Shown piece by piece: positions 60,194 through 63,772 of a DNA stretch of 64,000 bases. This stretch comes from Roseovarius sp. M141 (GTDB lineage: Bacteria > Pseudomonadota > Alphaproteobacteria > Rhodobacterales > Rhodobacteraceae): contig NZ_VCNH01000008.1 in the NCBI RefSeq assembly GCF_024355225.1, positions 1,984,001 to 2,048,000 of the forward strand, in the 5' to 3' direction. Under the pieces are notes generated by a model, which saw only the letters and a program-made list of their open reading frames with translations, searched no databases and was not told where the DNA came from. The stretch's first letter is position 1. The number at the start of each line of letters is the position of its first letter. Both the position numbers and the translations under genes were made by a program.

Positions 60194-61360
60194 GTGACCC
60201 CTGGCGCGCGCATTCAGGCTGCGATCGAAATACTCGATCACATCGCGGGCGGCGTGCCCGCTGAGAAGGCACTGATCGGATGGGCGCGGCAGTCCCGCTT
60301 TGCCGGATCGGGTGATCGGGCGGCGGTGCGCGACCATGTGTTTCAGGCACTGCGTTGCTGGCGATCCTATGCTTGCCTTGGGGGCGGCGAAACGGGGCGC
60401 GCGCGCATGTTGGGCGCGTTACGTGCGGGTGAGATTGATCCCGATACGCTGTTCACCGGGGTGGGTCATGCCCCGGAGCCCCTAAGCGCAGCCGAGCGAG
60501 AGGCGGGGGGTGTCCCGACAGGGGCTGATGCCTGCGACATGCCGGAATGGCTATTGCAGAAGTTTCGCGCCTCGTTAGGCGACAAGGCCGAAGCGACAGC
60601 GCAGGCCTTGCGCCAGCGCGCGCCTGTCATGCTGCGCGTCAACCGGCGCAAGGGGGATCGCGACACCGCAATAGCGGCCTTGGCCGGTGAGGATATTATC
60701 TGCGGCGCGCATCCCATTGCAGACATGGCATTGATCGTGACGCATGGCGCCCGCCGATTGGCGCGCAGTCGCGCCTATCTGGACGGGCTGGTCGAGCTTC
60801 AGGACGGCTCCAGCCAGGCGGTAATGGATGACATAGACCTGCCCCCGGCGCCCCGCATTCTGGACTATTGTGCCGGTGGCGGAGGTAAATCACTGGCCCT
60901 TGCCGCGCGGAGCGACGCGCAGATTTCTGCGCATGACGTGGACCCCGCGCGCATGCAGGATTTGCCAAATCGCGCGGCGCGCGCAGGCGTGGATATCACG
61001 GTGCTGGACAAGCTGCCTGCACCGGGCAAGGCATTGTTCGATATGGTTTTATGCGACGTGCCCTGTTCCGGTTCGGGGTCTTGGCGTCGCGCGCCAGAGG
61101 CCAAGTGGCGGCTGACGCCCGAGCGGCTGACCGATCTGACGCGCCTTCAGTCACAGATCATGGCTGCGGCTGCGGAGTATGTCGCCCCCGGTGGGCAGTT
61201 GATATACGCAACCTGTTCTGTCCTCAGTGCCGAAAACGAGGACCAGATCGACGCCTTTCTTGCCGCGTCGCCCGGCTGGGTGCGGCGCGAAACCCACAGG
61301 TTTGATGTAACGGACGGTGGTGACGGTTTCTTCGTGGCGCACCTTTGCCGCGATGGATAG
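60194..61360 (+). CDS. RsmB/NOP family rRNA m5C methyltransferase
   Basis: A 388-aa protein with an N-terminal NusB-like region (~1-80) and a C-terminal m5C methyltransferase. SAM motif I is LDYCAGGGGKSLALA. The two catalytic cysteines are in DVPCSGSGSWRR and YATCSVLSAEN. RsmB methylates 16S rRNA C967. The start is GTG at 60194, 51 bp after guaB. Confidence 0.85.
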   Translation: MTPGARIQAAIEILDHIAGGVPAEKALIGWARQSRFAGSGDRAAVRDHVFQALRCWRSYACLGGGETGRARMLGALRAGEIDPDTLFTGVGHAPEPLSAAEREAGGVPTGADACDMPEWLLQKFRASLGDKAEATAQALRQRAPVMLRVNRRKGDRDTAIAALAGEDIICGAHPIADMALIVTHGARRLARSRAYLDGLVELQDGSSQAVMDDIDLPPAPRILDYCAGGGGKSLALAARSDAQISAHDVDPARMQDLPNRAARAGVDITVLDKLPAPGKALFDMVLCDVPCSGSGSWRRAPEAKWRLTPERLTDLTRLQSQIMAAAAEYVAPGGQLIYATCSVLSAENEDQIDAFLAASPGWVRRETHRFDVTDGGDGFFVAHLCRDG

Positions 61361-61463: not shown

Positions 61464-63329
61464 TTGACCATATCCTCACTCTCTCTCAACCCGATCAAGC
61501 GGGCGGCGACGCAGTTGCGTCCGCATGCAGCCTTGGTATTGTTCTTTGCGGTGCTGTTTGCGGTGACCGCATTCTTGATACCTCCGGGACTGGAACAACA
61601 GGCCATGATCCTGGTGGCGCTGGTGCTGGGGGGGTGTGCAGGATGGATCCTGCGTATGTCGTGGCGCGACACTGTATCGGAAACCCGCGCGGCTGATTCC
61701 TTGCGTATCTTGATCGAACATGACGCAGCGGCCAGCGTGGTGACCGGGCCTGACGGCGCGATCATTTGCTGCAACAACGCGGCACAGCGCGCCTACGAGG
61801 CCCAGCGATTCGATGCTTTGTCCGAGGTGCTGCAGCCGTTGATCGCGAACCCGGGTGCGATCCTGTATCGTCTTCAGACGCGCGCAGGTGTGCGCGGCGC
61901 GGCGCACGAGGATGTTGTAACGGGCGAGGGGCACGTGCGTCTGTCGGTCCACAGGGCCGGGGCGGACACGCTGCTGTGGAGGATTGAGAAATCCGCAGAC
62001 CTGGTGGCCCGGCGCAGTGATACGCTGCCACTGCCGATGCTGACGATCGGACGCAACAATGCGGTTCTTTACATGAATGACGCAGCGCGTCTGCTGTTTG
62101 GCGAGCGGGTTCGCACGCTTGATCTTATCTGTCCCGCGCTGCCGCTTCGTTCGGGGCAAATGAACGACGTCAGTACGCAGTCCGGCGTAGAATCGTGCCT
62201 CGTCGTCGAGTTGGAGGGTATCGCCGGGCGGCGCGAGGTCTTCCTGATGCCGGGCGTCACCGTAAATGCGACCGAAGGCCCGGCGGTGGAGTGGACCTTT
62301 TTCGATGAGTTGCCGGTGCCTTTACTAAAACTGGCGCGCGGCGGTACGATCGAACTGTGCAACCGCCCGGCAGCTGATCTTTTGGGGGCCGATGTGGCGA
62401 AAGGGCGGCAAATCACTGACCTGCTCGAAGGTTTGGGCCGCTCCATTCCTGATTGGCTGGAGGATTCCGCGCTTGCGCGGGGCGCGCTGCATTCGGAATT
62501 TCTGCGCGTGCGCCGGTCGGATCGCGAAGTGTTTGTACAGGTCACGCTGAACCGTACGATGGAAAACGGCGAGGTGATCCTGATCGCGGTTTTGAACGAC
62601 GCGACCGAGCTGAAATCGCTTGAAGCTCAGTTCGTCCAATCGCAAAAGATGCAGGCCATCGGCCAGTTGGCCGGGGGCGTCGCGCATGATTTCAATAACC
62701 TTCTTACCGCGATTTCAGGACATTGCGACCTTTTGCTACTCCGCCATGATCAGGGCGATTCGGACTATGGAGATTTGCTACAGATCAATCAGAACGCCAA
62801 TCGCGCTGCGTCGCTGGTGAACCAGCTTCTGGCGTATTCGCGCAAGCAGACCTTGCGCCCCGAAATCATGGACCTGCGCGACGCGATGTCGGACCTGACG
62901 CATCTGCTGAACAGGCTGGTCGGGGAAAAGGTGGTCTTGTCACTGAATCACGATCCGGCCCTATGGTCTATCCGCGCCGATAAACGCCAGTTCGAGCAGG
63001 TTGTGATGAACCTGGTCGTGAATGCGCGCGATGCCATGCCCGAGGGGGGCGAGATCCGGGTCGAGACGCAGAACGTCACACTGGACGCGCCCCTGCACCG
63101 TGACAGGGCAGTGGTGGCGCCGGGTGATTGGGTCCGGATCAGCGTCAGGGATGAGGGGATCGGCATTCCGCAGGATCGCTTGTCAAAGGTGTTTGAGCCG
63201 TTCTTTACGACCAAGCGCACTGGCGAGGGAACGGGATTGGGCCTTTCGACGGCCTACGGCATTGTCAAACAGACTGGCGGCTTTATCTTTGTCGACAGCG
63301 AGGAGGGGGGGGCACTACGTTTTTCCTGA
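61464..63329 (+). pseudogene. cckA: Cell-cycle histidine kinase CckA, kinase part (frame ends early at a G tract)
   Basis: 621 codons from a TTG start (AGGG about 9 bp upstream). It has two membrane segments (residues ~20-66), PAS-type regions (~85-380), the dimerisation box with phospho-accepting His408 (AGGVAHDFNNLLTAISGH), and a HATPase with N box (VVMNLVVNARDAMP), DEGIGIP, FEPFFTT and GTGLGLS. This is CckA, which feeds phosphate through ChpT to CtrA. The frame breaks at eight Gs (63305-63312). With nine Gs it would read SEEGGGTTFFLMF straight into the receiver. Here it ends ALRFS-stop at 63327-63329. This may be a sequencing error, a real split or a phase-variable tract. Confidence 0.85.
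63305..63312 (+). other. Eight-G homopolymer where cckA changes frame
   Basis: The run of eight Gs follows GAGGA. A -1 shift, or one extra G, joins the kinase and receiver frames exactly, with the expected GxGTTF motif restored. The kinase stop TGA (63327-63329) overlaps the receiver ATG (63329-63331) as TGATG. Confidence 0.85.
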
Positions 63330-63772
63330 TGTTCCCCGCACACGAAGCGGTGACGCTGCGCCCCACCCCAATCCAGAAGCCACAGATCGAGGTAACGCCG
63401 ACAGAGGGGCTTGTCCTGCTGGTCGAAGATGAGGCGCCGGTGCGCGCTTTTGCATCGCGCGCCCTCCAGATGCGTGGTTTTACCGTGCTAGAGGCAGAAT
63501 CAGCAGAAGAGGCGCTGAAAATCGTTGAGGATCCGACGATCACGATAGACGTCTTTGTCACGGATGTGGTGATGCCGGGCATGGATGGACCCAGCTGGGT
63601 GCAAAAGGCACTAAAGGTACGGCCCGACGTGCGTGTCGTCTTTGTGTCCGGCTACGCAGAAGAGGATTTTGGTGACACACAGGCGCGTATTCCCAACTCG
63701 GTCTTTTTGCCAAAACCGTTTTCCTTGACCGAACTGACAGAAGTCGTGCAGCAGCAAATGAGTGGCACATGA
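63329..63772 (+). pseudogene. cckA: CckA receiver domain, separated from kinase by frame change
   Basis: A 147-aa fragment from ATG 63329. It contains a complete receiver: acidic pocket LVEDEAPVRA, phospho-acceptor Asp79 (FVTDVVMPGMDG), Thr/Ser-like FVSGYA and Lys in FLPKPFS. It belongs to the C-terminus of hybrid CckA. If the frame break is real, the TGATG overlap could let ribosomes reinitiate and make it as a separate protein. Confidence 0.85.

Follow-up and report, generated by a model that had tools for sequence, protein, structure and literature searches.

A probable recent single-base frameshift splits the hybrid kinase gene cckA of Roseovarius sp. M141

The hybrid kinase gene cckA of Roseovarius sp. 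M141 is divided between two reading frames that change over at a run of eight Gs. The split is best explained by a real and recent single-base frameshift, to which we assign a probability of roughly 0.6; an artefact of the record ranks second. It looks like a private mutation of a rather unexceptional kind, in a gene dispensable in related bacteria. The locus was analysed within a stretch of 64,000 nucleotides (the window), which lies on contig C8 (3,674,460 bases) of a genome of 4,515,828 bases in nine contigs.

The kinase frame (61464–63329, forward strand) encodes 621 residues, comprising PAS domains, HisKA and most of HATPase_c, and ends in DSEEGGALRFS. The receiver frame (63329–63772, forward strand) encodes 147 residues with a Response_reg domain, in which VTDVVMPGMDG and LPKPFS match the relatives. 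The frame changes at a run of exactly eight Gs (63305–63312, forward strand) in the last glycine box of the HATPase domain, where the kinase-frame codons read GAG GAG GGG GGG GCA CTA CGT TTT TCC TGA. The receiver frame is exactly offset from the kinase frame, and the two overlap in TGATG (63327–63331, forward strand), with the kinase stop codon (63327–63329) sharing one base with the receiver ATG (63329–63331). A preliminary description of this DNA had reported a cckA gene split into kinase and receiver frames at the G tract, the offset and the TGATG overlap; the sequence, open reading frames and Pfam matches bear it out on each of these points, coordinates and headline included. Upstream lies a gene for an RsmB/NOP family methyltransferase (60194–61360, forward strand), which served as calibrator and control.

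Pfam places HisKA at residues 400–462 and HATPase_c at residues 506–619 of the kinase product, next to its PAS domains, and Response_reg at residues 29–140 of the receiver product. The HATPase match of the kinase product reaches profile position 102 of 111, compared with 109 in the intact relative P0004. For both halves the NCBIfam CckA models NF046020 and NF046026 rank first, at scores under the cut-off of 1000; the intact P0004 likewise falls under it (520.7 versus 1000). The CckA domain set (PAS, HisKA, HATPase_c and receiver) is complete but spread over two frames, so that, as judged by homology, the locus is a CckA gene and not a whole CckA protein. The kinase start is listed at TTG 61464, and TTG 61515 aligns better with the starts of P0002, P0003, P0004 and P0006; the listed start is probably 17 codons too early (61464–61517).

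The junction was compared with those of relatives from two overlapping sets, comprising the best 80 of 590 matches, confirmed from genome contigs, and 29 loci from a genus search of 60 genomes (M141 included). A motif script read 108 of the 109 loci (L011, in which the motif was not found, was left out), representing 104 distinct proteins. From the motif GTGLGL the stop-free run extends for at least 176 residues in these 108 relatives, versus 33 in M141. The full junction was obtained for 107; L036 was left out by a script cut-off, yet its frame continues for 423 residues. The receiver is in frame with the kinase in all 107 readable junctions, in keeping with the preliminary statement that hybrid CckA is normally a single protein. 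That description had also proposed aligning tract length in relatives. At the junction, the maximum G-run length is two, three, four or five in 23, 53, 25 and 6 of the 107 relatives, respectively, and in none of them does it exceed five. Among readable relatives the G8 tract is, on this alignment, private to the M141 genome. Orthologues are intact elsewhere and, among the readable relatives, the break at this site occurs in the M141 genome only, which is the pattern of a frameshifted gene.

Of the 59 relatives in the genus search, 56 have frames of 767 to 809 residues. The frame of G033 is short (510 residues), with a contig end nearby and a fused junction. G017, a genus member that is 93% complete, has no match of CckA grade (best E 1.5e-18), G037 (65% complete) gives a weak match only, and one TAG lies within the matched cckA stretch of L110 (G021:C5:275462-277294), G021 being among the 56.

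A wider family search covered 140 genomes (M141 included), 131 of which matched, and the short frames of G206, G158 and G193 were fetched. The contig of G206 ends within the receiver, still in frame, and G158 has a short match frame in a gene that is fused at the junction. For G193, in which the match starts at base 5 of its contig, the motif script gave nothing. G073 and G162 are fused, kinase and receiver searches returning equal frame lengths; the short frames of G107 and G176 were left out of this check. A receiver survey with the stand-alone P0163 as query matched 163 of 199 genomes (M141 included). Among the matches listed, receiver frames below 380 residues occur only in M141 (191 residues) and G222 (163 residues). 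In G222 the receiver (frame 3492–3983 of L210, G222:C10:30500-36000) directly follows the RsmB-type gene, with no kinase between; provided that its assembly is correct, a cckA locus devoid of its kinase therefore exists in another member of the family. P0163 (181 residues) and P0199 (220 residues) are stand-alone CckA-type receivers in the protein index; P0163 is named CckA in Aliiroseovarius, where its contig is up to 3.18 Mb long. Either could be another split CckA gene or the result of a misplaced start.

The sequence of the box in relatives suggests how the tract could have arisen. In the nearest proteins this sequence is SKEGAGTTFF (P0002), SKEDVGTTFF (P0003), SEEGAGTTFF (P0004 and P0005) and SEENVGTTFF (P0006), and the ancestor presumably read S-E-E-G-x-G-T-T-F like them, with a codon that we infer from the proteins of P0004 and P0005. 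Following GAG GAG, any GGG-GNG-GGC in which N is not G has a single non-G base between runs of five and three Gs, so that loss of the interrupting base would join the two runs into exactly eight. In a less simple route, a base change would first lengthen the G run, which would then contract. The preliminary description had instead envisaged a pre-existing tract of nine Gs, an idea that finds little support, since the residue between the two glycines of the box is glycine in 1 of 107 relatives; common codons there are GAG (19) and GCG (9). Loss of the interrupting base, a route absent from that description, appears to fit the relatives best, and the G8 tract may have resulted from the mutation instead of causing it. 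Against a recent frameshift of this kind, long G runs generally slip more often than single bases are lost outside repeats, and changes in homopolymers may be commoner in the M141 genome, the G8 count of which equals that of the richest relative.

The conservation of the two halves bears on the age of the break. The catalytic part of the kinase has no deviations at 146 conserved columns, and the receiver has one (L to V) at 59. The dN/dS ratio relative to G059, a sister species, is 0.056 for the kinase and 0.113 for the receiver, with synonymous sites near saturation. It follows that the break is recent or not real, and the data fit either case; gene decay was ruled out, the conserved columns being intact. 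Lineage-only changes were counted for M141 against G059 and three further relatives, in that order (M141 to relative). They number 15 to 6, 14 to 7, 14 to 9 and 14 to 11 in the N-terminal and PAS part; 1 to 2, 3 to 6, 1 to 4 and 1 to 3 in HisKA and HATPase; 6 to 2, 3 to 1, 4 to 2 and 4 to 1 in the receiver; and 12 to 11, 8 to 17, 7 to 13 and 12 to 12 in the neighbouring gene. In a codon-based count against G059 with other outgroups, the kinase half has 25 to 10 and the receiver 5 to 5. The relative rates are mixed, with the N-terminal part possibly faster, and the receiver counts are too few for a claim of relaxed selection.

The strongest alternative, which we regard as unlikely, is an indel in sequencing or assembly at the G run, in which case the true gene is fused and the split is a single annotation mistake. 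Homopolymers are a usual place for sequencing indels, every readable relative is fused (107 of 107), and well-conserved halves are expected of an artefact as of a recent mutation. There is also a precedent, in that a split of cckA in the Wolbachia wMel record was suspected of being a one-base addition; according to the part of the source available, the re-examiners sequenced the gene again and their table gives 826 residues (PMC4426382).

Against an artefact, the exact 621-residue and 147-residue proteins are each indexed on three contigs, which do not include that of the window because the longest is only 41,275 bases versus 3,674,460 bases. The RsmB-type neighbour is also indexed on three contigs, the longest of which (3,674,460 bases) is the window's own. 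Most simply, the genome's own record presumably treats cckA as a pseudogene, and the halves are hence listed only from shorter contigs. The three contigs would belong to other assemblies that share the split, and these may have read data in common with the assembly of the window. No fused protein with more than 89% identity was found among the best 120 of 5757 matches, the split form alone exceeding that value.

The quality of the assembly at large also argues against an artefact. In a comparison with 200 kb of G059, 89 non-overlapping open reading frames of G059 had a match in M141, and six frame pairs were flagged. Of these six, only cckA exceeds 80% identity on both sides (86 and 84). In the remaining five, one side has 42 to 72% identity, which we attribute to weak alignment or to shadow frames lying beyond gene starts. 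The reciprocal comparison (87 frames of M141 against G059) flagged five pairs, and in every one of them one side has 53 to 75% identity. cckA is thus the only convincing mid-gene frame break in the 89 frames.

G/C tracts of at least eight were also surveyed, with 63 distinct tracts, cckA included, drawn from 100 listed of the 108 G8 matches in the genome. By score, 25 are in frame in genes, 26 are in low-scoring or non-coding sequence, 4 are at strand changes and 8 are at same-strand frame changes. The last group includes cckA, as well as L140, L172, L195, L198 and L199, in which the stop of the upstream frame precedes the tract. Nine tracts were inspected by eye: L121, L163, L166, L184, L187 and L190 are in frame with a gene, and L135, L142 and L176 were kept out of the in-frame count. 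In total, 31 of the 62 other tracts are in frame in genes (25 by score and 6 by eye), and one or no further convincing frame break was found among the listed tracts. Generally poor assembly quality was ruled out by these two comparisons. The sequencing error raised in the preliminary description is weakened by the split halves on other contigs and by the clean comparisons, and it retains the modest weight given above. One of the inspected tracts (L184 1501–1508; G000:C8:1932691-1932698) is a G8 in the last ATPase glycine box of another sensor kinase, in frame; a response regulator gene follows, and we take the pair to be DctB/DctD-like.

A second alternative holds that replication changes the length of the G run and toggles CckA between fused and split forms. 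Eight Gs in a row are enough for slippage, and bvgS is a hybrid-type sensor kinase gene. In the available part of PMC1891110, the frame of the sensor kinase BvgS of Bordetella pertussis is set by a G/C homopolymer (C6/C7), as in cckA of M141, and both tract lengths are found across strains and in mixed culture. In M141 cckA, unlike bvgS, a single tract length has been seen and conservation of the tract is lacking: a phase-variable gene would keep its tract across relatives, and 0 of 107 have a G run above five. Both the tract in relatives and fused near-identical proteins were sought and were absent, the near-identical proteins among the matches listed being all of the split form, on three contigs. 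Moreover, many other tracts of at least eight in the M141 genome sit in ordinary genes. Titles and beginnings of abstracts in the literature listed told of no homopolymer switch in cckA. Tract length alone is unremarkable: the window holds one G8 on both strands versus 4.3 expected from dinucleotide shuffles, and the 108 matches genome-wide stand at the top of the range in 12 relatives of the same genus (14 to 108). The unusual part is the frame change at the tract. Such a switch seems improbable.

The kinase and receiver might also function in trans, as separate proteins whose translation is coupled. This functional split is a sub-case of the recent frameshift, with overlapping odds, and we consider it more doubtful still. 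It is consistent with the TGATG overlap, the intact receiver, the receiver-only gene retained at the same locus in G222 and the further stand-alone CckA-type receivers in the protein index. However, the kinase frame loses the end of the ATPase domain, and the break seems too recent to show selection on the split form.

Least probable of all is that some fused CckA arises at G GGG GGG through transcriptional slippage or a programmed −1 ribosomal frameshift: in the kinase frame the slippery heptamer has X XXY YYZ spacing, the required shift is −1 and GAGGAGG overlaps the start of the G run, but a purine-rich stretch overlapping the slippery site is off the usual stimulatory spacing, the 107 relatives show no conservation, and the reading was rejected as no downstream structure was found in the 88 bases past the tract (63313–63400), which fold worse than most shuffles (z-score of +1.29; 187 of 200 shuffles fold at least equally well). 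Adding the odds of the slippage switch and of programmed frameshifting, it remains distinctly unlikely that G8 is a live switch or leaky site, with split CckA as the default and some fused. The tract itself is the only positive evidence for switching or recoding. Slippage as a biological switch, as the preliminary description had suggested, is unsupported given relatives' G runs of at most five, the split form alone above 89% identity and the z-score of +1.29. If G8 did act in this way, a subpopulation would have active CtrA signalling (motility and gene transfer).

A recent frameshift has a parallel in Wolbachia wAlbB, in which, in the available part of the report, cckA lies in two open reading frames attributable to a single-base deletion, as confirmed by re-sequencing of two samples (PMC4426382). 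In both bacteria the split of cckA can be put down to a one-base change. However, wAlbB is an obligate endosymbiont and its break, within the receiver, removes the Asp (PMC4426382), whereas the M141 break precedes the receiver, which stays whole.

With a recent frameshift, the kinase polypeptide would lack the end of the ATPase domain and its own receiver, and the receiver would at best be made separately, via coupled re-initiation at TGATG. The relay to ChpT and CtrA would probably be reduced or lost. M141 retains a ChpT-family gene and a flagellin gene, and CckA–ChpT–CtrA signalling is probably weakened by the split. The CckA proteins of Ruegeria KLH11 (PMC3692519) and Dinoroseobacter shibae (PMC4046655) share their domains with M141 and are placed in this relay; as described in the available parts of these sources they are hybrid kinases with the receiver attached, unlike M141. 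In the same portions, cckA is non-essential in Ruegeria KLH11 (PMC3692519) and can be deleted in D. shibae, giving a viable knockout (PMC4046655); a partly available source gives the CckA system as not essential in R. sphaeroides. Loss of cckA is therefore tolerable in the roseobacters studied, as the preliminary description had proposed, at least to the extent that these sources cover it.

A G run at a frame break need not be a slippage element and may instead have been produced by a deletion. If the split is real, M141 would be a free-living roseobacter in which the kinase at the head of the CtrA pathway has been knocked down naturally, and would provide a natural test of whether the CckA receiver must be attached to its kinase.
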